DNA from: Ruegeria atlantica
GTDB lineage: Bacteria; Pseudomonadota; Alphaproteobacteria; Rhodobacterales; Rhodobacteraceae
Assembly (NCBI RefSeq): GCF_013032005.1
Contig: NZ_WQBE01000001.1
Coordinates: 186,001 to 250,000 of the forward strand
Direction: 5' to 3'
DNA: 64,000 bases
Below the pieces are notes generated by a model. The model did not search any database. It had not been told where the DNA came from and worked only from the letters and a program-made list of their open reading frames with translations. A program made the translations under genes and the position numbers. Positions 30,848-46,793 of this stretch are shown piece by piece. Each line of letters starts with the position of its first letter. Position 1 is the first letter of the stretch.

Positions 30848-31561
30848 ATGCAGGGATTTGCATCAGAATTCAACTCGGCAATGACTCTGATCCTCAATGG
30901 GGATGCAGAGTTGTGGGCGATTGTGTTGCTGTCCCTGGAAGTTTCCATCTTTGCCGTGCTGATTTCTGCGTTGATTGGCATGCCCGTTGGTGCGGCTTTG
31001 GCGGTCGCTCGGTTTCCGGGACGTCGAATTCTGATCGTGCTGATGAATGCTTTGATGGGGTTCCCACCGGTCGTTGTCGGGCTGCTGGTCTATCTGATGC
31101 TGTCGCGTTCAGGGCCGTTGGGTGTGCTTGAGTTACTGTATACACCGACCGCGATGATCATTGCGCAGGTGGTTCTAGTTACCCCCATCATCGCAGCGTT
31201 GACCCGGCAAGTGGTCGAATTGCTGGCCGAGGAGTATTCGGAACAGCTCCGCTCACTGGGGGTGTCCCGGCTGGCATCGGTTCCGGTGCTGTTGTGGGAT
31301 GCGCGATTGGCGCTGGTGACCGCACTGCTAGCTGGGTTTGGTCGGGCCATTGCCGAGGTCGGTGCGGTGATCATAGTTGGCGGCAACATCAATCACGTGA
31401 CGCGTGTTATGACGACGACCATTGCTTTGGAGACCTCTAAGGGCAATCTGGCGCTGGCGTTGGCACTGGGGGCGATCCTGATCGGTATCGCGGTGGCGGT
31501 GAACGCCATGGTCAGCACGCTCAGCCTGCGAGCCGAGCAGGAGGGGTTGCGCCATGCGTGA
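30848..31561 (+). CDS. tupB: Tungstate ABC transporter permease TupB
   Basis: 237 residues of a BPD_transp_1 permease with about six membrane helices. The segment MNALMGFPPVVVGLLVYLMLSRSGPLG and the EAA region YSEQLRSLGVSRLASVPVLLWDARLAL, then FGRAIAEVGAVIIVGGNI, are typical of TupB. The adjacent TTTSTQ-type binding protein supports tungstate (possibly molybdate) specificity. Overlaps tupC by 8 bp. The transporter supplies W or Mo for the formate dehydrogenase encoded next door. Confidence 0.9.
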   Translation: MQGFASEFNSAMTLILNGDAELWAIVLLSLEVSIFAVLISALIGMPVGAALAVARFPGRRILIVLMNALMGFPPVVVGLLVYLMLSRSGPLGVLELLYTPTAMIIAQVVLVTPIIAALTRQVVELLAEEYSEQLRSLGVSRLASVPVLLWDARLALVTALLAGFGRAIAEVGAVIIVGGNINHVTRVMTTTIALETSKGNLALALALGAILIGIAVAVNAMVSTLSLRAEQEGLRHA

Positions 31562-32288
31562 TTTGACTTTGCAGTTGGCCAGTTGTTTGTCGGTTGATGG
31601 GATGCGGATCACCCGTAAAGGCAAGGCCTTGTTGGATGTGCCGCAGCTTATCCTTGATGGTCCGGGGCCAACCTTGATCCTTGGGCCGAATGGATCGGGC
31701 AAAAGCCTGCTGCTGCGCTGTCTGCATGGGCTAATTGTGCCGGATCGCGGGCAGGTCCGGCAGGATGGTGTCGAGCTGAATGCTGACCACAAGGCGCGGC
31801 AGGCGATGGTGTTTCAGCAGCCCGTGCTGTTGCGCCGGACCGTTGCTTCCAACCTGGATTTTGTGCTGAAGCGCCAGGGGATGCCGCGCAGCACGCGCAA
31901 GTCCCGGATCGAGGAATTGCTGACCGAAGGCGGCCTGGATGGCAAAGCCCGCCAATCCGCCCGGTCCCTGTCAGGGGGAGAAGCACAGCGGCTGGCCATT
32001 CTACGCGCCCTCGCGCTGGACCCAGAGACGTTGTTTCTGGATGAACCCACCAGCGCGCTTGATCCCAATGCCACGCAGATGATCGAAAGGATGATCCTGC
32101 GCGCCTCAACCCGGGGTGTCCGCATCGTTATGGTGACGCATGACATCGGGCAGGCCCGGCGGTTAGCCGCCGATATCGTGATGATGCAGGGCGGTCACGT
32201 GGTTGAACATGGGGCGGCCAAACAGGTACTGGATGCCCCCAAAAGCGACGCCGCACGCCGATATCTGGCTGGCGGGCTAGTCACTTAA
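31554..32288 (+). CDS. tupC: Tungstate ABC transporter ATPase TupC
   Basis: 244 residues. Walker A GPNGSGKS (about residue 44), Q-loop VFQQPVLLRR, signature LSGGEAQRLAILRAL and Walker B TLFLDEPTSALDP are all present. The ATG overlaps tupB by 8 bp. It energises tungstate uptake with TupB and the periplasmic TupA. The subunit order B-C-A differs from the frequent A-B-C order, but all three are adjacent. Confidence 0.9.
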   Translation: MRDLTLQLASCLSVDGMRITRKGKALLDVPQLILDGPGPTLILGPNGSGKSLLLRCLHGLIVPDRGQVRQDGVELNADHKARQAMVFQQPVLLRRTVASNLDFVLKRQGMPRSTRKSRIEELLTEGGLDGKARQSARSLSGGEAQRLAILRALALDPETLFLDEPTSALDPNATQMIERMILRASTRGVRIVMVTHDIGQARRLAADIVMMQGGHVVEHGAAKQVLDAPKSDAARRYLAGGLVT

Positions 32289-32306: not shown

Positions 32307-33122
32307 ATGATCCGAACTTTTTTTCGAGCAGCTCTTTTCGCCGTTGGTTTGACCGCTGCGTCCGCCAACGCCGAGGAACCCTTTATCGTGGTGCAATCGA
32401 CGACGTCCACTCAGAATTCGGGTTTGCTGGATTACATCCTGCCGGGGTTCGAGGCCGAGACGGGTATTGACGTACGTGTTGTTGCCGTGGGCACCGGTCA
32501 GGCGATCCGCAATGCCATCAACGGGGATGGGGACGTGTTGCTGGTGCATTCCAGACCAGCCGAGGAACAATTCGTTGACGACGGTTGGGGGGTCGAGCGG
32601 TTTGACGTGATGTACAACGATTTTGTTCTGGTCGGGCCAAAATCCGATCCGGCCAAGGTGCGGGGTGGCATGGATATCGTTGAGGCGCTGGTTGCGGTGT
32701 CCGAAGCCGAAGCGCCCTTTGCCTCGCGCGGAGATGACAGCGGAACGCACAAGGCCGAGATGCGCCTCTGGGATTGGGCGGGTGCCGATCCGACCGCCGC
32801 ATCGGGGACGTGGTACCGCGAGACCGGCTCGGGCATGGGGGCGACTTTGAACGTGGCCAGCGGGATGGGGGCCTATGTGCTGACGGATCGCGCCACGTGG
32901 CAATCCTTTGGCAACAGGGGGGATCTAGAGGTTCTGGTCGAGGGTGACCCGCGTCTATTCAATCAGTACGGTATCATCCTTGTGAACCCGGATAAGCATC
33001 CGCAGGTCCGGGCCGCAGCGGGTCAACGATTCATTGACTGGCTGATCGGCCCCGACGGGCAGGCGGCCATTGCGTCTTACAAGCTGGATGGCGAGCAATT
33101 GTTCTTTCCCAACGCCGAGTGA
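32307..33122 (+). CDS. tupA: Tungstate-binding periplasmic protein TupA
   Basis: 271 residues with signal peptide (MIRTFFRAALFAVGLTAASANAEE). The mature start FIVVQSTTSTQNSGLLDYILPGFEAETGIDVRVVAVGTGQA contains the TTSTQ oxyanion motif typical of TupA. ASRGDDSGTHKAEMRLW and GSGMGATLNVASGMGAYVLTDRATW are further family segments. TupA binds tungstate with very high selectivity in known cases. GGAG lies 9 nt before the ATG. The convergent regulator gene ends 6 bp downstream. Its shortened relative at 44895-45623 copies its first and last thirds. Confidence 0.93.
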   Translation: MIRTFFRAALFAVGLTAASANAEEPFIVVQSTTSTQNSGLLDYILPGFEAETGIDVRVVAVGTGQAIRNAINGDGDVLLVHSRPAEEQFVDDGWGVERFDVMYNDFVLVGPKSDPAKVRGGMDIVEALVAVSEAEAPFASRGDDSGTHKAEMRLWDWAGADPTAASGTWYRETGSGMGATLNVASGMGAYVLTDRATWQSFGNRGDLEVLVEGDPRLFNQYGIILVNPDKHPQVRAAAGQRFIDWLIGPDGQAAIASYKLDGEQLFFPNAE

Positions 33123-34001: not shown

Positions 34002-34127
34002 TCAGTCGAGACGCACAGCCGAACCGGTTCCCGCTTCAGCAGCGCTGAAGCCGACCTGTTGCAGTGCATAGGGCGCAGCGACGGTGATTACGACCATTAC
34101 GGCCACAGCGGCAAGAAAGGCTTTCAT
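34002..34127 (-). CDS. 41-residue single-pass membrane peptide in the formate dehydrogenase operon
   Basis: The frame starts MKAFLAAVAVMVVITVAAPYAL, a single hydrophobic helix (or a signal-like segment), then QQVGFSAAEAGTGSAVRLD. GGAGGAGACCA precedes the ATG, and the ATG overlaps the TGA of the WD40-cytochrome gene (ATGA), so it is translated with it. The stop is immediately followed by the regulator ATG. The precise nesting between two coupled genes argues it is real. Likely anchors or matures the cytochrome complex. No homologue is known to me. Confidence 0.7.
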   Translation of the reverse strand: MKAFLAAVAVMVVITVAAPYALQQVGFSAAEAGTGSAVRLD

Positions 34128-35401
34128 TGGTCTCCTCCGGTCTTATTCTCCGGTGCCGTTGCGCGGCGCAAAAAGGCAATCAGGTCATCGCGATCCTGGG
34201 CCTGAGTGATCCGCTGCATCGGCATCTTCGATCCCGGTATGTAGTGGTCTGGCCCCTCGTCGAAAAGGGCATTTATCGTTTCGTCATTCCAAACGATATC
34301 AGAGTCTTGCAGCGTATCCGAGTAGAAATATCCCGCCAGCGTACCGGCCTTGCGTCCGAAGACTCCATACAAAGTCGGCCCGGCACGCCTTTGCCCGTCG
34401 GGCGTCAGGCTGTGGCAGATCGAACATTTGCGGGAAAATTGCCGTTCCCCGTTGCTCATTTCTTCGGGGTTCTTCAGGAAACTGGGCTCGGCCGCTGCCA
34501 TCTGTTCGCGATCGCCGAAGGATGAAACCGGCCAGCTATACATCGCCTCATCAATGCCTCCCGCGTGGATGTTCTGACCGTCCGCAGAAAAGGCCAGCGC
34601 CCAAACCGGCCCGCGCAGAGTGGCGCGGAAATCCTGCGCGATGTGCCATTCGACTGTGTCGATCACCATGATGTAGCCCTCACCGTCACCCACGGCCAAA
34701 AGGCTACGATCCGGGCTGAGTGCCAGCGCCAGAATAGGACGGCGATCCAGGGTAAAGTCGCGTTCTTCGCCGGTGGTCAGGTCCAAAATGCGGGTCACAC
34801 CGTCGACTGCACCATAGGCAATCCAGTTGTCGGCGACGTTCAGAACCAATTCATTGATCCCGAACCCGTGTTCGACCAGTCGCTGGATTTCCTTTCCACT
34901 GGCTACATCCCACACCCGCAGAGTTCCATCTATGCCAGCCGAGTACAGTGTTGCACCATCTGGTGAAAAAGTGACGGCGTTCACACCGCTGCCCGCGGTA
35001 AGCGTTTGTGCGGCTGACCCATCTTCGGGCCAAAGTCCAATAGTGCCGTCCCAACTGGCAGTGGCGACATGCGTTTTCGAGGCCGCGATCCCCACGATCT
35101 TGCCTTTGTGCTGGCCAACAACCTCTCCGCCCGGCCAGCGGCGCAGGGTGAAATCATCGCCTGCTGAATAGATCGCGCGCCCGTTGAACGCGACCGAGTT
35201 TACGGCTGCCTCGTGCCCTTCCAGCCATTCGGGCCTGCGGTTCGACCACAAACCGACCGAGTTGTCGAAACTGGCGGTGGCGATCCGTCCGTCTGGCGCG
35301 GTGGCGATCCCCATGATCGGCCCACCGTGACCCTTGAGCGTGTAAAACTCGGACATGGCGGGCAGTGGGGCCAGCGCCAGGGCCAGGACCAGCCCGCGCA
35401 T
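34124..35401 (-). CDS. WD40-repeat protein with C-terminal cytochrome c domain
   Basis: 425 residues with a signal peptide (MRGLVLALALAPLPAMS). Residues ~20-295 hold about seven WD40-type blades (for example RIATASFDNSVGLW, HVATASWDGTIGLW, TLYSAGIDGTLRVWD). A haem-binding CSICH lies at residues 326-330 and a probable axial methionine in GSKMPM (M393), giving a class I cytochrome c. The product is periplasmic. It directly follows fdhI (TAG next to ATG), so it is a candidate electron acceptor or assembly partner of the formate dehydrogenase. WD40 plus cytochrome c is an uncommon pairing in this enzyme class. Confidence 0.85.
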   Translation of the reverse strand: MRGLVLALALAPLPAMSEFYTLKGHGGPIMGIATAPDGRIATASFDNSVGLWSNRRPEWLEGHEAAVNSVAFNGRAIYSAGDDFTLRRWPGGEVVGQHKGKIVGIAASKTHVATASWDGTIGLWPEDGSAAQTLTAGSGVNAVTFSPDGATLYSAGIDGTLRVWDVASGKEIQRLVEHGFGINELVLNVADNWIAYGAVDGVTRILDLTTGEERDFTLDRRPILALALSPDRSLLAVGDGEGYIMVIDTVEWHIAQDFRATLRGPVWALAFSADGQNIHAGGIDEAMYSWPVSSFGDREQMAAAEPSFLKNPEEMSNGERQFSRKCSICHSLTPDGQRRAGPTLYGVFGRKAGTLAGYFYSDTLQDSDIVWNDETINALFDEGPDHYIPGSKMPMQRITQAQDRDDLIAFLRRATAPENKTGGDQ

Positions 35402-36601
35402 CTATTCCGCGGGTGAGGCCGCTGCCTTACTGGCCCCTTTTTCTTGTACCTCTTCCAACCACAGCGAGTGATGCTCGCGTGCCCATTGCTCTTCGACTTC
35501 GCCGGTACCCATTGCGTCAAAGGCACCTTCCATGCCCACTGAACCCAAATAGATATGGGCGATAATGATGGCGATGAACACATAGGCGATCATCACGTGC
35601 CAAACCTGCGCGTATTGCATCTCCTCTTGCGGTGACATCTGAGTTGGCAAATTCAGGCCAAACATCTGTGGAATGCCGGTGGAATTAGCGACCGAGAAGG
35701 TCTTGGCGAACATCGGCAGTTCGAACGGGAACAGCAGCGACAGCCCGGACAGGCTGATCGAAACGCCCAGCAGGATACAGGCCCAGAAGATGACCTTTTG
35801 TCCTGCGTTAAACTTCCTGGCAGGCGGATGGCTGCCCTTGGTGAAAAGGCCCCCACCGGCGGCCAGCCATTTCAGGTCCACCCGGTTGGGGATGTTGTGG
35901 GCGATCCAGTTCACGGTGACGATGATCAGACCCAGCATAAATGCCCATGCGAGATTGTTGTGTAACCATTTGCAGCCTTGCGCGATGGTGGCAAACCCTT
36001 CTTTCCCGAAAAGCGGGATCAGGAAATCACGGCCATAAAGGGTCAGCAGGCCGGTCAGGCCAAGTACAAGGAAAGACCCGGCGAACAGCCAGTGCCCGAA
36101 CCGCTCAAAACCGTTGAAGCGGGTTACGGTGCGGCCGGTTTTTTCCCCGTCGATGCGGATTTTTCCGCGGATCAGAAAAAACAACACGATGATGGCCGCC
36201 ATTCCGCCCAGGATATACGTTCCGTATTCGCGCAAGGGGCCTGTGCGGAAGTTCAGCCACCACATGCCACCGTCCTGGATTAGAACGCCAGCCGCAGGCC
36301 CCTTGGATGAAACTGTTGTATCGGCCGAGCCGTATCGGATCGCGCGATAGACATCACTGTCTGAGGCAACGCCGCGTGTTCCCAACTGGCCCAGCAGACC
36401 TTCGGCATTGCCTTGACCGGTGTTGTCCGAGCGATAACGATTGTCGACCTTTTCACCGCGCTGACGGGCCAGAATGTCTTCCAGTGTCGTGGCGCCGCCA
36501 GTGGTGCTGCGTTCGGATTCAGTCGGGACATCCGCACTTTCTTGAGCCAAGGCGACACTGGTGAGGAATAGGGGGATCAGCAGCATTAAGATCAGGCGCA
36601 T
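35402..36601 (-). CDS. fdhI: Formate dehydrogenase cytochrome b556 (gamma) subunit
   Basis: 399 residues with a cleavable signal (MRLILMLLIPLFLTSVALAQ) and a ~110-residue periplasmic N-domain before the cytochrome b core. Four to five membrane helices follow (TYILGGMAAIIVLFFLI, HWLFAGSFLVLGLTGLLTLYG, LAWAFMLGLIIVTVNWIAHN, FWACILLGVSISLSGLSLLFPF, HVMIAYVFIAIIIAHIYLGS). Histidines in RFGHWLF and ARFN-HNLAWAF flank the haems in family members. It hands electrons from the FdhAB module to the quinone pool or to the adjacent cytochrome c. The long N-terminal domain is characteristic of the alphaproteobacterial type. Confidence 0.88.
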   Translation of the reverse strand: MRLILMLLIPLFLTSVALAQESADVPTESERSTTGGATTLEDILARQRGEKVDNRYRSDNTGQGNAEGLLGQLGTRGVASDSDVYRAIRYGSADTTVSSKGPAAGVLIQDGGMWWLNFRTGPLREYGTYILGGMAAIIVLFFLIRGKIRIDGEKTGRTVTRFNGFERFGHWLFAGSFLVLGLTGLLTLYGRDFLIPLFGKEGFATIAQGCKWLHNNLAWAFMLGLIIVTVNWIAHNIPNRVDLKWLAAGGGLFTKGSHPPARKFNAGQKVIFWACILLGVSISLSGLSLLFPFELPMFAKTFSVANSTGIPQMFGLNLPTQMSPQEEMQYAQVWHVMIAYVFIAIIIAHIYLGSVGMEGAFDAMGTGEVEEQWAREHHSLWLEEVQEKGASKAAASPAE

Positions 36602-36628: not shown

Positions 36629-36979
36629 CTATCGGTCAAAGCCGCTGACTTGTTTGTGAAAGACCGCTCCAACCGGCGTAAGCGCCGCGTGCAGGTCTTC
36701 TTTAGCGGGGCCGTAAACGTCCAGCTGAGTTGGTGTCAGAATTGCCAGAAAACGATCTGCGAAATTTGCCCCGAAGTTTTGCATGTGGATCATCGCATCA
36801 TCAGAACTGGCGTATCGTTCAAATATGTGAACTGCCGATCCGCTGCGGTGCCATTCATAGGACTTCGCACCGCTTTCATTCAGTGTTGCATCCACCATTT
36901 CAGCCATTAGCGCATCGAATATGTCATCCTGATCTGCTTGCAGGTCAAGTTTCAGCAGCCAATAAACGTCTTCGGTCAT
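36629..36979 (-). CDS. ABM/YgiN-like small protein in the formate dehydrogenase operon
   Basis: 116 residues. A dimeric alpha/beta-barrel ABM fold can be read from strands KSYEWHRSGSAVHIFERYASSDDAM, and a helix-rich C-terminus follows. No signal peptide. It lies between fdhB and fdhI, 109 bp after fdhB and 27 bp before fdhI. Quinol monooxygenase-like proteins are sometimes found with redox genes, but its function here is not known to me. Confidence 0.65.
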   Translation of the reverse strand: MTEDVYWLLKLDLQADQDDIFDALMAEMVDATLNESGAKSYEWHRSGSAVHIFERYASSDDAMIHMQNFGANFADRFLAILTPTQLDVYGPAKEDLHAALTPVGAVFHKQVSGFDR

Positions 36980-37089: not shown

Positions 37090-37683
37090 CTAACCGTCTT
37101 TCTGGTCGTAGGCCGTGCCCCAACCCCAGGCGCCCGAGCCAAACCCGCGCGCCACGACGCGTTCGCGGTAGATGGCCGAAACCACGTCGCCATCACCGGC
37201 GAGCAGGGCCTTGGTGGAACACATCTCGGCGCAGATGGGCAGTTTGCCCTCGGCGATCCGATTGCGACCGTATTTGGCGAACTCTGCGGTCGAGTGCGTT
37301 TCCTCGGGACCACCGGCGCAGAAGGTACATTTGTCCATCTTGCCGCGTGATCCGAAGTTTCCGGCCTGCGGATACTGCGGCGCGCCGAATGGGCACGCAT
37401 AGAAGCAATAGCCGCAACCGATGCACAGGTCCTTGGAGTGCAGGACGACGCCTTCTTCGTTCTGATAGAAGCAGTCGACCGGGCACACCGCCATGCAAGG
37501 CGCATCCGAGCAATGCATGCAGGCCACCGAGATTGAGCGTTCGCCCGGGTTGCCGTCATTGATCGTCACCACCCTGCGGCGGTTGATGCCCCATGGGACC
37601 TCGTGCTCGTTCTTGCACGCAGTGACGCAGGCGTTGCACTCGATGCAGCGTTCAGCGTCGCAGAGAAACTTTGCTCTAGCCAT
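37090..37683 (-). CDS. fdhB: Formate dehydrogenase iron-sulfur (beta) subunit
   Basis: 197 residues with four [4Fe-4S] motifs: [54 protein letters not shown], and the paired CTFCAG / [10 protein letters not shown]. This is the short soluble-domain type (no C-terminal membrane helix), which connects FdhA to cytochrome b FdhI on the periplasmic side. It starts 12 bp after the fdhA stop and ends before a pair of tandem hairpins. Assembly probably requires co-export with FdhA. Confidence 0.93.
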
Positions 37684-37695
37684 AAATCGTCCTCC

Positions 37696-40590
37696 TTACG
37701 CTGCCGAGATTTTGCAGAGAGTACATTTCGTCTCCTGCATCTGGGTCACTGAATCGTAGCCATAGGTCTGGGCGGTGTTGGAGCTTTCACCCAGAACGTA
37801 GGGATCAGCGCCAGCGGGGTATTTGTCCCGCAAGTCCTGTCCCTGGAAATGGCCGCCGAAATGGAATGGCATGAAGGCCACGCCGGCACCGACCCTGTTG
37901 GTCAGCATCGCCATCACCTTGACTTTGCCGCCCTCGGGACCTTCGACCCAGACCTGAGACCCATCACGAATACCAAGGTTGTTGGCATCTCGCGGGTTGA
38001 TCTCGACGAACATGTCCTGTTGCAGTTCGGCCAGCCACGGGTTCGATCGGCTTTCCTCGCCGCCACCCTCATATTCGACCAGACGACCAGACGTCAGGAT
38101 TAGCGGGTAATCCTTGGAAAAGTCGTTCTTCTGGATCGAAGCGTAAAGGGTAGGCAGGCGATAGGCCTGACGGTCTTCGTAAGTCGGATAGTCCTCCACC
38201 AGATCGCGCCGGTTGGTATATAGCGGTTCGCGATGCAGTGGGATCGGGTCCGGGAAGGTCCAGACGACCGCACGGGCTTTGGCGTTCCCAAAGGGCGCAC
38301 AACCATGCTCGATCGCGACCCGTTGGATGCCGCCGCTAAGGTCGGTTTTCCAGTTGGTCTTCGGACCCGCAACAGCGTCGATTGCTGCGCGTTCCTCATC
38401 CGTCAGATCGCCATCCCAACCAAGATCCATCAGCATCTGCATCGTGAATTCGGGATATCCATCCTGAATTTCCGACCCAACGCTATAGACCCCTTCGGCC
38501 AGCAGGTTGTCGCCATCGCGTTCCACCCCGAAACGGGCGCGGAAGGTCAGGCCACCCTCGGCCACCGGTTTGGACATGTCATAGAGGTTTGGAGTCCCCG
38601 TATGACCCATCTCGGCCGTGCCCCAGCAGGGCCATGGCAGACCATAGTATTCGCCGTCGTTTGGTCCACCAACAGCCTGCAACGTCGTTCTGTCGAACGT
38701 GTGCTGGTTGGCCATATGGCTTTTCAGACGTTCCGGCGACTGACCGGTATAGCCGATGGTCCAGAGGCCCGAGTTGAACTCACGCGTGATGCTTTCAACA
38801 TTCGGGGTTTCGGCGTCTTCCATTTCGATATTGCGGAAGAACCGGTCCGCCCAGCCGAACTTGTTGGCAAACTTGGCCATGATGACCTCGTCCGGCAAGC
38901 TTTCGAACAGCGGATCAACCACCTTGTCGCGCCACTGCAGCGAGCGGTTCGAGGCCGTGACCGAGCCACGGGTTTCGAACTGCGTACAGGCAGGCAACAG
39001 GTAAACGCCATCGGTGCGGTCATGCAGAACGGCCGAGACGGTGGGGTACGGGTCGATCACGACCAGCATATCCAGCTTCTCCATCGCCGTCTTCATTTCC
39101 GGCCCACGCGTTTGCGAGTTCGGCGCGTGACCCCACAGAACCATGGCGCGAACGTTGTTGTCCTGATCCATGTTTGCTGGGTCTTCCAGAACACCGTCGA
39201 TCCAGCGAGAGACAGGGATACCGCGCTCGTTCTGAAGCGGTTTATCCTTGCCTTCCTTGTCCTTGATCGTGGCGAACTGACCAGCCAGCCATTCGGGTTC
39301 TTCACCCCAGACACGTGCCCAGTGACCCCATGCACCTGCGGACAGGCCGTAATAGCCGGGCAGGGTATGAGACAGAACACCAAGGTCCGTCGCGCCCTGC
39401 ACATTGTCGTGACCGCGGAAGATGTTGGTGCCACCACCCGAGGTGCCCATGTTGCCAAGCGCAAGCTGCAGCACGCAGTAGGCGCGGGTGTTGTTGTTGC
39501 CGTTGGTGTGCTGGGTCCCACCCATACACCAGACGACTGTGCCGGGCCGGTTGTTGGCCATGGTGCGGGCAACGCGCTTCAGCTGCGAACCGGGCGTACC
39601 GGTGACACGCTCGACCTCTTCCGGGTTCCACTTGGCAACCTCTTCCTGGATCTGGTCCATACCCCAGACACGGGTGCGGATGAACTCTTTGTCCTCCCAG
39701 CCGTTGTCGAAGATGTGCCACAGGATGCCCCAGATTAGCGCAACGTCTGTGCCGGGGCGGAAGCGGACATATTCATCTGCATGGGCCGCGGTGCGCGTAA
39801 AACGCGGGTCGCAGACAATAAGCGGTGCGTTGTTCTGCTCTTTCGCACGCAATATATGCAGCAGCGAGACAGGATGCGCCTCAGCCGGGTTACCGCCGAT
39901 GATAAAGATCGCCTTACTGTTGTGCATGTCGTTATACGAATTGGTCATGGCGCCGTAGCCCCATGTATTCGCAACACCCGCAACAGTGGTCGAGTGGCAG
40001 ATACGCGCCTGATGGTCCACGTTGTTCGTGCCCCAGTAGGCGGCGAACTTGCGGAACAGATAGGCCTGTTCGTTATTGTGCTTCGCGGAACCCAGCCAAT
40101 AAACACTGTCTGGCCCCGACTCTTCGCGGATGCTCATCATGCCGTCGCCGATCTCGTTGATCGCTTCTTCCCAGCTGATGCGTTTCCACTCTCCACCTTC
40201 CTTTTTCATCGGGTATTTCAGCCGGCGCTCGCCATGGGCGTGCTCGCGAACCGAGGCCCCCTTGGCGCAGTGCGCACCCAGGTTGAACGGACTGTCCCAA
40301 CCGGGTTCCTGCCCGATCCAGACGCCGTCCTGCACTTCGGCGACGACTGTACAGCCGACCGAACAATGGGTGCATACGGATTTGATGTTTTCAACGGCCT
40401 GATTGGCCGCTGTCTGGGCGCTGGCTGGCGTCACGGTTCCACCCGTGGCGCTGATCGCGGCAAGGCCGCCGATCGTCAGGCCCGATCCACGCAGGAATGC
40501 GCGGCGATCGACGGTTTTCTCGCCGACCTGGGACAGGATACTTGTCCGCTGGGGGCGTCTCGCAACCCCGTTGGTCTTTTTCCTTAGCAT
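37696..40590 (-). CDS. fdhA: Formate dehydrogenase catalytic (alpha) subunit, Cys-type, Tat-exported
   Basis: 964 residues. The Tat motif RRAFLRGSG is near residues 29-37. The [4Fe-4S] cysteines are 73, 76, 80 and 108. The metal ligand is Cys198 in RICHSTTVAG, followed by His199, so the enzyme is a Cys-type and no UGA codon is needed. The bis-MGD binding segments (WLGSAKHNNEQAYLFRKF, GGNPAEAHPVSLLHI, CMGGTQHTNGNNNTR) fit formate dehydrogenase. It oxidises formate in the periplasm with W or Mo; the tup genes alongside favour tungsten or flexible use. The ATG is preceded by GGGAGGAAAAC. Confidence 0.95.
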   Translation of the reverse strand: MLRKKTNGVARRPQRTSILSQVGEKTVDRRAFLRGSGLTIGGLAAISATGGTVTPASAQTAANQAVENIKSVCTHCSVGCTVVAEVQDGVWIGQEPGWDSPFNLGAHCAKGASVREHAHGERRLKYPMKKEGGEWKRISWEEAINEIGDGMMSIREESGPDSVYWLGSAKHNNEQAYLFRKFAAYWGTNNVDHQARICHSTTVAGVANTWGYGAMTNSYNDMHNSKAIFIIGGNPAEAHPVSLLHILRAKEQNNAPLIVCDPRFTRTAAHADEYVRFRPGTDVALIWGILWHIFDNGWEDKEFIRTRVWGMDQIQEEVAKWNPEEVERVTGTPGSQLKRVARTMANNRPGTVVWCMGGTQHTNGNNNTRAYCVLQLALGNMGTSGGGTNIFRGHDNVQGATDLGVLSHTLPGYYGLSAGAWGHWARVWGEEPEWLAGQFATIKDKEGKDKPLQNERGIPVSRWIDGVLEDPANMDQDNNVRAMVLWGHAPNSQTRGPEMKTAMEKLDMLVVIDPYPTVSAVLHDRTDGVYLLPACTQFETRGSVTASNRSLQWRDKVVDPLFESLPDEVIMAKFANKFGWADRFFRNIEMEDAETPNVESITREFNSGLWTIGYTGQSPERLKSHMANQHTFDRTTLQAVGGPNDGEYYGLPWPCWGTAEMGHTGTPNLYDMSKPVAEGGLTFRARFGVERDGDNLLAEGVYSVGSEIQDGYPEFTMQMLMDLGWDGDLTDEERAAIDAVAGPKTNWKTDLSGGIQRVAIEHGCAPFGNAKARAVVWTFPDPIPLHREPLYTNRRDLVEDYPTYEDRQAYRLPTLYASIQKNDFSKDYPLILTSGRLVEYEGGGEESRSNPWLAELQQDMFVEINPRDANNLGIRDGSQVWVEGPEGGKVKVMAMLTNRVGAGVAFMPFHFGGHFQGQDLRDKYPAGADPYVLGESSNTAQTYGYDSVTQMQETKCTLCKISAA

Positions 40591-40972: not shown

Positions 40973-41584
40973 TCACACCGCCGTCATTCGGAAGGCCTCG
41001 CGTTCGATTTCCATAAACACCCGACCGGCTGTGCCGACCGAGGCATAGAGAACCGACGCTTCGGCTGCTTCCAAATCAGAATAGAAATGTGTGGCCCAGG
41101 GGCCGATATGTTTGTTCCAGAACGCCTTTTGATCCTCGACCGTGGCGGGTGCGCCAAAACGGCCAACGATCATGCCTGCCATCATTTCCATCAGCGAGGC
41201 AATGTTGTCTTCAGGCTCGAATACGTTCTGCGCTCTGGTGATCCCGCGGACGGCCATGTCATTGCGCAACTGCGCCAGTGGTTTCTCGTTCAAAAAACCG
41301 GTCAGGTAATAGCTGCCATAGGGCAGCAGCTCACCCCGGCCCAGTCCGATGAACAGCGCATTGAATTCCCGTTCCGCGGCGGCGGGTTTGGTGACTTTGG
41401 CCACCCGCGCCATGGCTTGAATGGCTTGACCCAGGTCTGTGCCATCCCCGGTCAGACCCGCGACCTGATCCAGCAGCATCTGATCTGGTGGGCCTGACAG
41501 AAGCAGACCCAGAAAATTGTAGAAATCCGCGCGCAGGCGATCTTCGGCCGAGACTTCCAGATTTTGCGCATTGCCTGCGGTCAT
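40973..41584 (-). CDS. TorD-family chaperone for formate dehydrogenase
   Basis: 203 residues, all-helical, with RLRADFYNFLGLLLSGPPDQMLLDQVAGL near the N-terminus and NALFIGLGRGELLPYGSYYLTGFLNEKPLAQLRNDMA in the middle, the TorD/DmsD pattern (E.PDH-like segment present as PEDN). TorD proteins bind the Tat signal peptide and cofactor-free catalytic subunit until bis-MGD is inserted. AAGGATGACGAA overlaps the previous stop, and the ATG at 41584 is chosen. Dedicated partner: FdhA. Confidence 0.88.
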   Translation of the reverse strand: MTAGNAQNLEVSAEDRLRADFYNFLGLLLSGPPDQMLLDQVAGLTGDGTDLGQAIQAMARVAKVTKPAAAEREFNALFIGLGRGELLPYGSYYLTGFLNEKPLAQLRNDMAVRGITRAQNVFEPEDNIASLMEMMAGMIVGRFGAPATVEDQKAFWNKHIGPWATHFYSDLEAAEASVLYASVGTAGRVFMEIEREAFRMTAV

Positions 41585-41588
41585 TTCG

Positions 41589-42176
41589 TCATCCTTCGAA
41601 TTCAAATTTCATGCGGCGCGGGGCAACCTGCGGCGCTGTCTCGTCCACCTCATCGGTAAATGCCACGGCCACCTGGGCAGGGGCTGGGGTTGGAACCACT
41701 TCCGGTTCCTCTTCGGCTGCCAGGGTTTCACCTTCATCCACCAAGGGTTCGATTTCAGGGGCATCCTCTTCGGCCTCTGCAGCCAATGTTTCGATGTGGC
41801 TAAGCATTCCTTTGCCAACTTGATAGGCGGTCTGGATGTTCTCGATCACACAGGCCGCGTCGGTATAGTCCTCGCCATAGTCGACAAGCCCGTCCACATT
41901 GGCCAATACCGGGTTCAGCCGCCACAGCCGCCGCAAGGCACGGCGGCGCAACCGGTCAGGGACGGCCTTTGCCATAAACCCCGAGACATCATCCCCAGCC
42001 TGCAACTGATCGGGGTCGGGCAAGTTGAACTGTGCCAAAATCTCGGCGTCGCTCTTTTCTTCCAACTCGGCGTGTTGCGTGGCGATGACCTGTTCTTCAC
42101 TCGCGATGACCTCGGCCTCGGCTTCGGCCTGAACGGCAGCTTTGCGGCGGGACCAGAAATCGCGAGCTTGGGTCAT
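41589..42176 (-). CDS. DUF3306 protein of the formate dehydrogenase cluster
   Basis: 195 residues. The N-terminus RDFWSRRKAAVQAEAEAEV and RLRRRALRRLWRLNPVLANVDGLVDYGEDYTDAACVIENIQTAYQVGKGML are the DUF3306 pattern. The C-terminal half is acidic, with a Pro/Ala/Val-rich tail ending in KFEFEG. It overlaps the DUF3305 gene by ATGA. These families appear almost only with formate dehydrogenases of this type. Function is unknown, probably maturation or cofactor handling. Confidence 0.85.
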   Translation of the reverse strand: MTQARDFWSRRKAAVQAEAEAEVIASEEQVIATQHAELEEKSDAEILAQFNLPDPDQLQAGDDVSGFMAKAVPDRLRRRALRRLWRLNPVLANVDGLVDYGEDYTDAACVIENIQTAYQVGKGMLSHIETLAAEAEEDAPEIEPLVDEGETLAAEEEPEVVPTPAPAQVAVAFTDEVDETAPQVAPRRMKFEFEG

Positions 42177-42727
42177 TGCAACAGCCTCCGCGGTGCGCGG
42201 TAAACGTCCGAGGTCTGCCGGATACGCGCATCCCCCTTGCCGTCCTCTACAAGGTCCGTCCGTTTCTTGTCGCGGCGGCGTTTAACGAAAACCTCATCAC
42301 GGTGGTGTTCCAGCGCGAAATCCCGAACCCAGGCAATCAGCCCTTCAGTCATCGGGATTTTTTCGACAATCTCTTCGCCGGTATCTGCATAATCCTGTCC
42401 TTCGAACGGGGACGCCGTGACCAGCACCGCATCCATCGGGCGTTCGCCATCCAGCGCATCGCGAAGAACAAGGTAGATCGAAGGTTGTCCGTCGGACAGG
42501 TTGACCATGTAGGCCTCAGTTTCATCAGCCCAAAGCGTCAAGGGAAGGGTGGCGGCGTGGTACTCCACGGCTTCACCCTCGCGACGCATCTCAAGCCAAT
42601 CCGCTGGCCCGGCACCGGGTAGCACGGCAACGGCGCGCCAGTTCCACTTCGCCCAGCGGGTTACACCGGGTGTTTTGCGCACGACGACGCCGATTGGCAT
42701 TTCAATCTGGCTTGCGGCCTTGGCCAC
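42173..42727 (-). CDS. DUF3305 protein, first gene of the formate dehydrogenase operon
   Basis: 184 residues, DUF3305: MPIGVVVRKTPGVTRWAKWNWRAVAVLPG near the N-terminus, then WADETEAYMVNLSDGQPSIYLVLRD. The C-terminal ~50 residues are charged and basic (FVKRRRDKKRTDLVEDG). It is the first gene of the operon, so its upstream region holds the operon promoter shared with the divergent Fe-S gene. Function unknown; linked genetically to formate dehydrogenase assembly. Confidence 0.85.
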   Translation of the reverse strand: MAKAASQIEMPIGVVVRKTPGVTRWAKWNWRAVAVLPGAGPADWLEMRREGEAVEYHAATLPLTLWADETEAYMVNLSDGQPSIYLVLRDALDGERPMDAVLVTASPFEGQDYADTGEEIVEKIPMTEGLIAWVRDFALEHHRDEVFVKRRRDKKRTDLVEDGKGDARIRQTSDVYRAPRRLLQ

Positions 42728-42799: not shown

Positions 42800-42948
42800 A
42801 GTCTGAATTGCTGGGCTAATGATCTGATCACCGATTGTTTACGAACCCGAGAGGCATTGAAGACCCGGCCATACCGAAAGATTTGCCATGGGGCATTGCC
42901 ACTTTTCCAAGACACCCTAAGCTGAAACCAAGATGGGGAGGGGATGCC

Positions 42949-44901
42949 ATGGGCACAAAACTAATACTATGCGATTGCGCCGGAACGCAGGATCTGGAAG
43001 CCGAGAAAATCGCATCCGCTTGTGGGATCGCTTGCTCAAAGGTTCATACGGCCCTGTGTACGGCTGAGTTGGAGACTGCTGTATCCCTGATGCAGGACGG
43101 GGATACGGTGATTGCCTGCGGGCAGGAGCAAGATGTGTTCCGGGACCTTGCAGACGAATTGAAAATAGACATGCCGGGGTTTGTCGACTTGCGTGACCGC
43201 GCCGGTTGGTCAGAGCAGAGCAGCGATGCGACCCCCAAGATGGCCGCTTTGGCGGCTGAGGCGTTGCTGCCTCAGCCCATCACGCCCAGCGTTGACGTCT
43301 TTAGCGAAGGCACCTGTTTCATTGTCGGGGCAGGTGAGGTGAGTTTTGATCTGGCGGCCCGGCTGTCGGACACTTTGGCGGTGACGGTGCTGGTGACCGA
43401 TGACGCGTCGCCGGTTTCGCGGTCTTTTGACGTAGTGCGCGGCCAGCTTCGGTCGCTGAACGGCGCACTGGGCGGGTTCACATTGCGGCTGGACGCCTTG
43501 CAACAGCTAAAGCCGGGCGGCCGTGGGGTGTTTACCTGGACCGAGGCTCGTGATGGGGCGCACTCGGCCTGCGATATCATCATCGACCTGACCGGCGGCA
43601 CTGCGTTCGTGCAGGCCCCGGCCAAGCGCGAAGGCTATTTGCGCGCAGATCCCAAGGACCCGCTTGCCGTGGAACGGTTGGCCTATGAGGCGGTGCAACT
43701 GGTTGGCACGTTTGAAAAGCCGCTTTACGTGCGGCTCGAGGAAACGCTGTGTGCCCATTCCCGTGCCGAGCAGGTCGCCTGTACCAACTGTCTGGATATT
43801 TGTCCGACGGGTGCGATCGTGCCGGCGAAGGAACATGTGTCCATTGACCCAATGGTCTGCGCCGGATGCGGGGAATGTGCGGCGGTGTGCCCATCGACCG
43901 CTATCACATACGAGGACCCGCCAGTTTCTGCCCTGTTGTCACGCATGCACATTCTGGCGCGGACCTATCGGCGGGCCGGGGGGACGTCGCCCCGTTTGTT
44001 GGTCCACGATGCCCACGGGGCTGAGATGATCCGGCTGGCCGCCCGGTTCGGGCGCGGCTTACCCGCAGATGTCATCCCGCTTGAGTTAAACGTGATTTCG
44101 GGGTTCGGCCACGCCGAAATGCTGGCCGCATTGGCGCATGGGTTCGCACGTGTCGATATCCTTGTGGCCCCAACCACCGAACGCGACGCGCTGGATCGCG
44201 AATTGGTTCTGGCGCAGGCAATTGCAGGACCGGATGGTTTGTCCTTGATTGATCAGGCCGACCCCGATGCGATGGCAGACCTGCTATATGCGCAGGATGT
44301 TCCGTCACCGCTGTCCGATCCGGTGCTGCCGCTGGGCAACCGCAGACAAATCGCGCGCTTGTCCGCACAGGCGTTGAATCCGCAGGCGGATACACCTTTA
44401 TCATTACCCGAAAATGCTCCGTACGGGGCGGTGGCGGTGAATACGGACGCCTGTACATTGTGCCTCAGCTGCGTGTCGCTATGCCCGTCAGGTGCGTTGG
44501 CTGACAACCCGGACAAACCGCAGCTGAACTTTCAGCAGGACGCCTGTTTGCAATGTGGCTTGTGCAAGGGCGTTTGCCCCGAGGATGCGATTACCCTTGT
44601 CCCGCAACTGGACCTGAGCGACGCAGCCTTGTCTCAGCAGGTGCTGAATGAGGAAGAACCCTTTGCCTGCGTTGAATGCGGTGCGTTGTTCGGCGTGAAA
44701 TCTACGGTCGAACGGATCATGGAAAAGCTGTCTGGCACGCATCCGATGTTTGCCACCTCGGACAAGGCACGGATGATCCAGATGTGCGACAATTGCCGGG
44801 TGAACGCGCAGTTTCAACAATCAGACAATCCGTTCCAGTCCAACCCAAGACCCAAGGTTGTCACGACCGAGGATTATTTCTCAAAGCGAAAGGATCACTG
44901 A
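42949..44901 (+). CDS. Multi-cluster Fe-S protein with HdrA-like and MvhD-like parts
   Basis: 650 residues. Residues 1-105 resemble the HdrA N-terminal domain (ILCDCAG ... VIACGQEQDVFRDL ... FVDLRDRAGW). A degenerate nucleotide-fold segment FIVGAGEVSFDLAARLSD follows at 124. Ferredoxin cysteines are 268/278/281/285 and 304/307/310/314, then 502/505/508/512 and 533/536/539/543. Between them (350-430) is an MvhD-like stretch (LELNVISGFGHAEMLAALAHGFARVDILVAP). The C-terminus has CVEC (574/577) and CDNC (613/616). No signal peptide, so it is cytoplasmic. It diverges from the formate dehydrogenase operon; possible electron carrier or maturation factor. Start at 42949 follows GGGGAGGGG. Confidence 0.8.
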   Translation: MGTKLILCDCAGTQDLEAEKIASACGIACSKVHTALCTAELETAVSLMQDGDTVIACGQEQDVFRDLADELKIDMPGFVDLRDRAGWSEQSSDATPKMAALAAEALLPQPITPSVDVFSEGTCFIVGAGEVSFDLAARLSDTLAVTVLVTDDASPVSRSFDVVRGQLRSLNGALGGFTLRLDALQQLKPGGRGVFTWTEARDGAHSACDIIIDLTGGTAFVQAPAKREGYLRADPKDPLAVERLAYEAVQLVGTFEKPLYVRLEETLCAHSRAEQVACTNCLDICPTGAIVPAKEHVSIDPMVCAGCGECAAVCPSTAITYEDPPVSALLSRMHILARTYRRAGGTSPRLLVHDAHGAEMIRLAARFGRGLPADVIPLELNVISGFGHAEMLAALAHGFARVDILVAPTTERDALDRELVLAQAIAGPDGLSLIDQADPDAMADLLYAQDVPSPLSDPVLPLGNRRQIARLSAQALNPQADTPLSLPENAPYGAVAVNTDACTLCLSCVSLCPSGALADNPDKPQLNFQQDACLQCGLCKGVCPEDAITLVPQLDLSDAALSQQVLNEEEPFACVECGALFGVKSTVERIMEKLSGTHPMFATSDKARMIQMCDNCRVNAQFQQSDNPFQSNPRPKVVTTEDYFSKRKDH

Positions 44902-45623
44902 AGCTGTAGCGGCGCGCCTAAATCAGCAGCCTGGATGGCTGAGACAAACGCCAGAATGGCCTCCAGCTCTTCCAGCGTCATCTCGACCGGGTAAATGGGC
45001 GAGGGGCGTTCTGGGTCAAACGGCGGTGTTAGCCCGTCAATTTGTGTGAAGGCGGGATGGGGGTTGAGGGCAAAGAACGCCTCAAACCGTTCAGACCAGT
45101 CCGGCATGGCGCGCAATACCGCGAATGATGGGGTTGAGCCCAGACCGTTCATCCGGTTCTGCGGCCCAATCACATGACACCGGCCGCAATGGGTCATCGA
45201 CAGTTCCGCGCCCCGGGCAGCGTCGCCTTCGATCACGGTTTCCTGCTGGGTTGCCGTTACTTCGAAACTCGCAGAGAAGGGTGCCCCTTGGTCAGGGACA
45301 AAGCTTTCGACCGTATTCTTGCCGATATCGGACAGCAGCCAGTCGCGGAACCGTTCGTGCCGGGCGTTGTCTTCGATCCGTAGATGGTACACCACACCGC
45401 CGCGTGCAAAGACTGGATCGCCCGGCGGGGAGGTTTCGAGCACCAAAATGCCCCCGTCATCCGCAATAACGCGTATCCCGGTCTTGAGAGAGAAGCGAGG
45501 AAGGATATGTTGCAGCAGACCTGAGTCTGTTACTTCCGTCGGGGCGGCAAGGCCAATGGCCTCCTGCGACCAAGAGGGACTGGCAGAGAGCGACAGGCTC
45601 AGGCACAAAAGGACAACGCGCAT
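44895..45623 (-). CDS. Shortened TupA-like domain fused to cytochrome c
   Basis: 242 residues with a signal peptide (MRVVLLCLSLSLSASPSWSQ). Residues 28-52 (PTEVTDSGLLQHILPRFSLKTGIRVI) copy the start of TupA (STTSTQNSGLLDYILPGF), and residues 85-115 (DNARHERFRDWLLSDIGKNTVESFVPDQGAPF) copy its end, but the central ~150 residues are missing. A cytochrome c domain follows with CGRCH at 146-150. Probably a periplasmic haem protein that kept part of an oxyanion-binding fold. It overlaps the convergent Fe-S gene by 7 bp. A longer open frame upstream is rejected because the signal peptide starts here. Confidence 0.75.
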   Translation of the reverse strand: MRVVLLCLSLSLSASPSWSQEAIGLAAPTEVTDSGLLQHILPRFSLKTGIRVIADDGGILVLETSPPGDPVFARGGVVYHLRIEDNARHERFRDWLLSDIGKNTVESFVPDQGAPFSASFEVTATQQETVIEGDAARGAELSMTHCGRCHVIGPQNRMNGLGSTPSFAVLRAMPDWSERFEAFFALNPHPAFTQIDGLTPPFDPERPSPIYPVEMTLEELEAILAFVSAIQAADLGAPLQLQ

Positions 45624-45731: not shown

Positions 45732-46793
45732 ATGAGTGTTCGTGATGCGGTTCTGGCAAACCTGAAAAAGATCACTGACCCTGTATCGGGGCAGGATATC
45801 GTCAGCGCCGGAGTGGTGCGCGCGCTGAATGTCGAAGGTGACACCGTTCGGTTCGTACTTGAGATTGATCCGAAACAGGCCGAGCGAATGGAGCCCGTTC
45901 GTGCCGCCGCCGAGCAGGCCGCAAAGTTGGCAGACGGTGTGGCCAATGTGTCTGCTCTGCTGACCGCGCATTCGGAAAAGGCTCCGCCAGATCTGAAACC
46001 GAAACCCAAGCCATCGCAAACCGGCCCGCAGGCCGTACCGGGGGTGGATCGAATAATCGCCATTGCCTCGGGTAAGGGCGGAGTAGGCAAATCCACCGTG
46101 TCTGCCAACCTCGCCTGTGCGCTGGCGGCCGAGGGTCGTCGTGTCGGCCTGTTGGACGCAGATGTTTATGGCCCGTCGCAGCCCCGGATGCTGGGTGTCT
46201 CGGGCCGTCCAGCCAGCCCCGATGGCAAGACGATCCTGCCGCTGCGCAATCACGGCGTCACCATGATGTCGATGGGTCTGATGACCAATGAAGGGCAAGC
46301 GGTTGTCTGGCGCGGCCCAATGCTGATGGGCGCGCTGCAACAGATGATGAGCCAGGTTCAGTGGGGAGCTTTGGACGTGCTGATCGTGGACTTGCCGCCG
46401 GGCACCGGTGACGTGCAACTGACGCTGAGCCAAAAGTTCAAGGTGGACGGTGCCATTGTTGTATCTACCCCGCAGGACGTGGCCTTGATCGATGCCCGCA
46501 AAGGGATCGACATGTTCAACCAGCTCAAGACTCCTATCGTCGGCATGATCGAAAACATGTCGACCCATATCTGCTCCAACTGCGGGCATGAGGAACACGT
46601 GTTCGGCCACGGAGGTGTGAAATCTGAGGCCGAAGCGCTGGGTGTTCCGCTGCTGGGTGAAATCCCCCTGCATCTGGATATCCGGGTCGCTTCGGACGGG
46701 GGCGCGCCCATCGTGGTCAGCAAACCCGACAGCCCGCAGGCTGAGGCATTCCGCAAAGTCGCCCGCGATATGATCGCCAAGGGTAAAGCATGA
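45732..46793 (+). CDS. Mrp/NBP35-family ATPase, Fe-S cluster carrier
   Basis: 353 residues. The N-terminal DUF59-like domain (SVRDAVLANLKKITDPVSGQDIVSAGVVRALN) precedes the deviant Walker A ASGKGGVGKSTVSANLACAL (about residue 115), and CSNCGHEEHVF carries the CxxC pair that binds a [4Fe-4S] cluster between subunits. It delivers Fe-S clusters to apo-targets. The ATGA overlap with the following gene links it to the DUF4444 and DUF6505-like genes. Context suggests use for the Fe-S-rich formate dehydrogenase proteins, though Mrp is usually general. Confidence 0.92.
   Translation: MSVRDAVLANLKKITDPVSGQDIVSAGVVRALNVEGDTVRFVLEIDPKQAERMEPVRAAAEQAAKLADGVANVSALLTAHSEKAPPDLKPKPKPSQTGPQAVPGVDRIIAIASGKGGVGKSTVSANLACALAAEGRRVGLLDADVYGPSQPRMLGVSGRPASPDGKTILPLRNHGVTMMSMGLMTNEGQAVVWRGPMLMGALQQMMSQVQWGALDVLIVDLPPGTGDVQLTLSQKFKVDGAIVVSTPQDVALIDARKGIDMFNQLKTPIVGMIENMSTHICSNCGHEEHVFGHGGVKSEAEALGVPLLGEIPLHLDIRVASDGGAPIVVSKPDSPQAEAFRKVARDMIAKGKA

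Follow-up and report, generated by a model that had tools for sequence, protein, structure and literature searches.

Within the window (i.e. the whole 64,000-nt stretch of Ruegeria atlantica DNA analysed here) we identified a complete gene (44895..45623, - strand) whose 242-aa product, as judged from its sequence and its relatives, comprises a signal-like start, a domain corresponding to lobe A of the tungstate-binding protein TupA, a linker and a c-type cytochrome domain; that the protein has this architecture and has lost the TupA anion site we regard as practically certain. The initial annotation had described a truncated TupA domain on a c-type cytochrome adjoining formate dehydrogenase, and this layout is confirmed by homology, by structure modelling and by a survey of loci. 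The signal peptide that it had placed ahead of the fusion is matched by a signal-peptide-like N-terminus (residues 1-19, 45567..45623, - strand; sequence alone), which is followed by the TupA lobe-A domain (residues 20-120, 45264..45566, - strand; homology and structure model), a variable linker (residues 121-132, 45228..45263, - strand; dN/dS 0.53) and the cytochrome domain (residues 133-242, 44898..45227, - strand; PF00034 search). The nearest named relatives that we found belong to Ruegeria.

Genomic context of the fusion gene

The fusion gene is convergent with the gene of a 4Fe-4S protein (42835..44901, + strand; 7 bp overlap, family search) and divergent from that of an Mrp-type P-loop protein (45732..46793, + strand; named by sequence, its position being conserved). 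Family searches assigned further genes, all on the - strand, to a DUF3305 protein (42173..42727), a DUF3306 protein (41589..42176) that serves as marker of the formate dehydrogenase cluster, a TorD/NarJ-type chaperone (40973..41605), the formate dehydrogenase catalytic subunit FdhA (37696..40590; best family TIGR01591 at 478.5 bits, below its cut-off of 666.25), FdhB (37090..37683) and the cytochrome b subunit FdhC (35402..36601). The locus carries an FDH3 beta subunit, FdhB matching FDH3_beta (NF038355) at 343.8 bits against a cut-off of 240, and as compared with FDH3-type clusters it adds the lobe-bearing cytochrome and a WD40-cytochrome. The latter (34124-35401, - strand), which joins a WD40 propeller to a cytochrome c domain at the C-terminus and adjoins FdhC, is a second unusual cytochrome fusion in this locus and is annotated in plasmid records as c-type cytochrome. 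Between FdhC and FdhB lies a 116-aa protein (36629-36979, - strand) for which neither Pfam nor NCBIfam gave a match at E 1e-5. Some 12 kb from the fusion gene are the genes of the TupB permease and TupC ATPase (30848..32288, + strand; named by sequence and position) and of a full-length TupA (32307..33122, + strand; family search), whose type is, by profile comparison, the one nearest to the fused lobe. Beside tupA, a helix-turn-helix protein that also carries a PBP_like domain (PF12728, PF12727; 33129-34001, - strand) is perhaps a tungstate regulator.

Origin of the lobe from TupA

On the evidence of sequence comparison and model superposition, the N-terminal lobe is derived from TupA. The structure model predicts the single-lobe topology of a type II periplasmic-binding-protein fold, with residues 20-120 superposing on lobe A of TupA, as the proposal of a TupA-like lobe had implied; the part of TupA said to be missing corresponds to lobe B, which is deleted, so that the two-lobed cleft is absent. 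Profile comparison placed the fused lobe closest to tungstate-type TupA, the VTTSF TupA-like type (16 sequences) being rejected as its source on account of a weaker match (P 6.3e-6). Chance resemblance was ruled out by 100 column shuffles together with an open PDB sequence search, in which four of the top five matches were TupAs, the other being the related 3cvg (putative metal-binding protein), and the sixth was a maltose-binding protein at E 0.047. Foldseek alone gave a weak signal (3muq on top at E 0.011, nothing <0.001). The TupA model NF041772 matched 22 of 50 lobe members at E <=10 (best 0.0014), and its curated cut-off of 400 bits was not reached by the lobe, a weak test because the full TupA of the window itself falls short of it with 220.8 bits. 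Across the same number of members Pfam returned no TupA family and touched SBP_bac_11 in 4/50 (best E 0.039); the window's own lobe had no match in Pfam or NCBIfam. These comparisons drew on 84 fusions retained out of 115 after thinning to <80% identity, 50 of which entered the lobe alignment (A2), and the structure-model alignments comprised the window and related-locus sequences only (37 and 30 rows).

Loss of the anion site and new constraint on the lobe

According to PMC5517513, the proposed ligands of TupA are a lobe-A TTTS motif together with the lobe-B residues R118, T124 and D170. The latter three are missing from the fusion along with their lobe, and in the aligned stretch the TT(S/T) core occurs in 0/84 fusions, the window carrying APTEV (residues 27-31, 45531..45545, - strand) in place of STTST. 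That motif is present in 49/49 tungstate-type TupAs (a set picked by that very motif), and the TT pair in every, or almost every, one of the 74 TupA rows of any type. TupA-style oxyanion binding by the fusion is thus probably not to be expected.

On the other hand, the TupA frame is retained (G35 83/84, P42 84/84, F44 83/84, W95 84/84 and G101 83/84 fusions), with W95 (45339..45341, - strand) common to all fusions and to 49/49 tungstate-type TupAs. Within PRFSLK (residues 42-47, 45483..45500, - strand), R43 and K47 are each found in 84/84 fusions and L46 in 75/84, at positions that are all mixed in TupA; in the structure model the three lie about one helix turn apart in a predicted helix (residues 36-48). 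Median dN/dS over 37 Ruegeria-set sequences was 0.137 for the lobe, 0.528 for the linker and 0.047 for the cytochrome (649, 452 and 578 usable pairs, respectively, each of 666), values that are rough because dS comes close to saturation and the pairs that had reached it were discarded. The lobe is, by these substitution estimates, under purifying selection, i.e. maintained and not decaying.

The haem domain

The haem site CGRCH (residues 146-150, 45174..45188, - strand) provides C146, C149 and H150, which are conserved as CxxCH in 96/96 sequences (12 lobe-less relatives among them), and His189 (45057..45059, - strand) is equally present in 96/96, the same relatives included. None of the methionine columns is invariant, the best being M158 (63/96; 8 residues past CxxCH) and M215 (28/96). 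From this pattern we infer that the second haem ligand would be His189, or else that the site is open, and the fusion cytochrome possibly holds a bis-His haem. PF00034 matched 51/53 cytochrome-domain sequences at E <=1, and the cytochrome alignment (A4) contained 41 of the 84 fusions plus the 12 lobe-less relatives. The domain was modelled poorly, with block-mean pLDDT of 41-75 in the full model and 43-78 when modelled alone.

Distribution and linkage to formate dehydrogenase genes

In the family sample (198 genomes), 88 had any match: 74 carried the fusion, 2 (G004 and G054) the cytochrome alone, and 12 weak matches only. The 74 fusion genomes come nearly all from different genera. Matches were present in 78 of the 385 genomes of the class sample, where 2 genomes from a different family also carried the fusion and 8 had lobe-less cytochromes at E <1e-20, while in the phylum sample (398 genomes) 17/17 matches at E 1e-5 belonged to the same class. 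Since only part of the candidates in each genome is scored in these samples, members can be missed.

The DUF3306 marker was found in 98/198 family genomes and in 73/74 fusion genomes (the sole exception being 82% complete); the fusion gene is linked to this cluster. The fusion was present in 73/98 DUF3306-positive genomes vs 1/100 negative ones, and absent from 25/98 of the positive. A TupA match was present as a separate gene in 74/74 fusion genomes (where such matches were complete or near-complete), in 98/98 DUF3306-positive genomes and in 40/100 negative ones, a distribution that fits a tungsten enzyme.

Gene order around the fusion is conserved as 4Fe-4S / fusion / Mrp. Within the family, 40 loci with the fusion were compared (L100-L119, L138-L157): the 4Fe-4S gene occupied its usual side in 39 (the sequence of L102 ends first) and Mrp was found in 38 (L109 ends first, and L147 shows no Mrp). 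The order is less regular in the two fusion loci from the other family: L132 has the formate dehydrogenase genes and a 3 kb gap, and L133 has Mrp but no formate dehydrogenase genes within its 13 kb. Fusion-less DUF3306-positive loci were examined in 20 of the 25 genomes concerned: in 11 the 4Fe-4S and Mrp genes are adjacent with no fusion gene between them, and the remaining 9 show an early end, no Mrp or a different gene order. A TupA of any type lay within 19/40 fusion loci (12 VTTSF, 6 tungstate type and 1 with another motif), counts that are lower bounds as most stretches covered ~10 kb on each side.

The VTTSF TupA-like type, which is about half identical to the TupA of the window, is accompanied by TupBC-like genes and, in those 12 loci, lies on the DUF6505 side of the cluster (e.g. 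L138:724-1440, L140:13019-13816 and L142:6400-7116). Furthermore, the fusion gene is also found on plasmids in Sulfitobacter, Sagittula and Tateyamaria (NZ_CP081121.1, NZ_CP021914.1, NZ_CP155732.1, NZ_CP126148.1 and NZ_CP019316.1).

Evolutionary history of the fusion

The comparative analyses indicate that the cytochrome is the older part, its lobe-less relatives adjoining formate dehydrogenase or tup genes in other alphaproteobacteria. In the 12 lobe-less cytochrome loci examined, such genes were nearby in 7 and absent in 5. In the FdhA tree (62 rows; 5 short rows omitted, and L215 labelled ‘none’ by hand as the cytochrome of that genome lies elsewhere), the lobe-less L122, L126 and L128 form the outgroup and the deepest ingroup branches carry the fusion. 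The suggestion that an acceptor evolved from the uptake protein is therefore reversed: lobe-less cytochromes occupy the outgroup loci and the fusion comes later in the tree, from which we conclude that a cytochrome gained a TupA lobe, and not that TupA was turned into an acceptor.

Since the lobe-less cytochromes of L121, L122 and L124 lie only ~1.0 to 1.15 kb from an STTS-type tupA, a donor next door is plausible, and the lobe was perhaps donated by the neighbouring tupA gene. The notion that the source tupA usually still stands beside the fusion was rejected, the tungstate type being present in only 6/40 loci (a lower bound).

Given its starred branches, the FdhA tree requires the fusion label to change at least 7 times (losses or transfers); 15 rows lack the gene altogether, and one ingroup row lacks the lobe alone. 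This concerns L120, which retains the cytochrome in its formate dehydrogenase cluster without the lobe and sits well inside the ingroup, a placement that favours lobe loss. In the cytochrome-domain tree, L120, L130 and L131 (all lobe-less) fall within the fusions, and an AU test (L128 and L129 omitted) did not reject the fusions as a single clade (p 0.786), the constrained tree having the higher likelihood; this tree fits both a single gain with loss and a plain single gain. The lobe-less cytochromes of L130 (9514-9852) and L131 (5313-5645) lie outside the formate dehydrogenase cluster in the family members G004 and G054, whose DUF3306 loci (L215 and L214, respectively) are without the fusion. 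These gene trees are best read as a single graft, after which the lobe was lost once (L120) and the gene as a whole was lost, or transferred, several times.

Proposed function

We read the protein as a monohaem, apparently exported cytochrome that belongs to FDH3-type formate dehydrogenase loci and has as its N-terminal domain a tungstate-type TupA lobe A stripped of lobe B and of the known anion ligands; this lobe was presumably grafted once onto an older single-domain cytochrome. The lobe may dock on a periplasmic partner and so keep the haem close to it, the most likely candidates being the FdhABC complex and the electron acceptor of that complex: with lobe B gone, it would expose the face of the old cleft, and an acidic partner would fit the new patch of R43, L46 and K47. 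Such a protein, docking through its lobe and working as accessory electron carrier or redox switch (possibly with a bis-His haem) and not as tungstate binder, is a quite possible reading that we hold tentatively. It is nonetheless our first choice, ahead of a role in maturation, as a spacer or in docking on a transporter, because the gene tracks the formate dehydrogenase cluster, which in turn also occurs without it. The absence from 25/98 DUF3306-positive genomes and the label changes in the FdhA tree likewise indicate that the fusion is not essential to formate dehydrogenase.

The same absence speaks against a maturation or protection factor that would, for example, reduce or guard the enzyme during assembly instead of serving as respiratory carrier. 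Such a role would accord with the position of the fusion, closer to the likely assembly genes (TorD-type chaperone, DUF3305, DUF3306 and 4Fe-4S) than to FdhC, but the protein looks exported, whereas the cofactor of formate dehydrogenase is inserted in the cytoplasm, before Tat export; we find this explanation unlikely. Just as unlikely is an accidental fusion in which the cytochrome alone works, with the lobe as no more than an inert spacer or an aid to folding. That L120 and the outgroup cytochromes exist without the lobe, and that the lobe evolves faster than the cytochrome, would be in keeping with this, but P42, R43, K47 and W95 are invariant in the fusions (R43 and K47 being new with respect to TupA), and in the FdhA tree the gene is missing as a whole in far more rows than the lobe by itself.

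A broader version of docking, in which the excised TupA lobe is a redox-controlled module through which the haem protein engages either the tungstate permease or formate dehydrogenase, appears improbable to us; if true, it would couple metal supply to formate respiration. A narrower one, with the lobe docking on the TupB permease or on TupA and coupling the redox state of the haem to tungstate uptake, draws on the closeness of the lobe to tungstate-type TupA and on the separate TupA of every fusion genome; as TupA is found in 98/98 DUF3306-positive genomes, whether they carry the fusion or not, this co-occurrence does not single out TupB, and we deem the idea still more doubtful. The redox-linked oxyanion sensor of the TupA kind put forward in the initial annotation, for which the match to a tungstate/molybdate-binding fold could be adduced, falls with the loss of the binding motif and of lobe B and is highly improbable.

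Relation to known systems and implications

As compared with the TupA of TupABC systems (5my5, 3lr1, 3muq; NF041772), the carrier or redox-switch candidate described here has no lobe B and neither the TTTS motif nor the remaining oxyanion ligands, and adds a cytochrome and the invariant R43 and K47. With class I c-type cytochromes (PF00034) it has CxxCH and the domain matches in common, and differs from them in having no invariant methionine, an invariant His189 and a binding-protein lobe. The single-domain cytochromes of L121, L122, L123, L124, L126 and L128 (other alphaproteobacteria) belong to the same family (CxxCH, STPSF-like motif, PH motif) and lie near formate dehydrogenase or tup genes but, unlike the fusion, carry no TupA lobe. 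Pfam and NCBIfam hold no model with the layout of TupA lobe plus cytochrome, the literature searched (in which few subscription papers were covered) yielded no description of such a family, and the word ‘cytochrome’ is absent from the main text of PMC13197769; within these sources, the claim that no family of this layout has been described stands.

As the tungstate-binding parts are gone from the lobe, it seems that a protein of transport was pared down and put to another use. The fusion thus offers a clear case in which half of a two-lobed binding protein persists as a domain of its own, with a complete or nearly complete TupA match remaining in each fusion genome. It also corrects annotation, the fusion being recorded as hypothetical protein in 4/5 plasmid records and as c-type cytochrome in 1/5. 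The gene adjoins those of a formate-oxidising enzyme in many marine bacteria, and provides a handle on how these bacteria wire a formate dehydrogenase of the periplasmic type.
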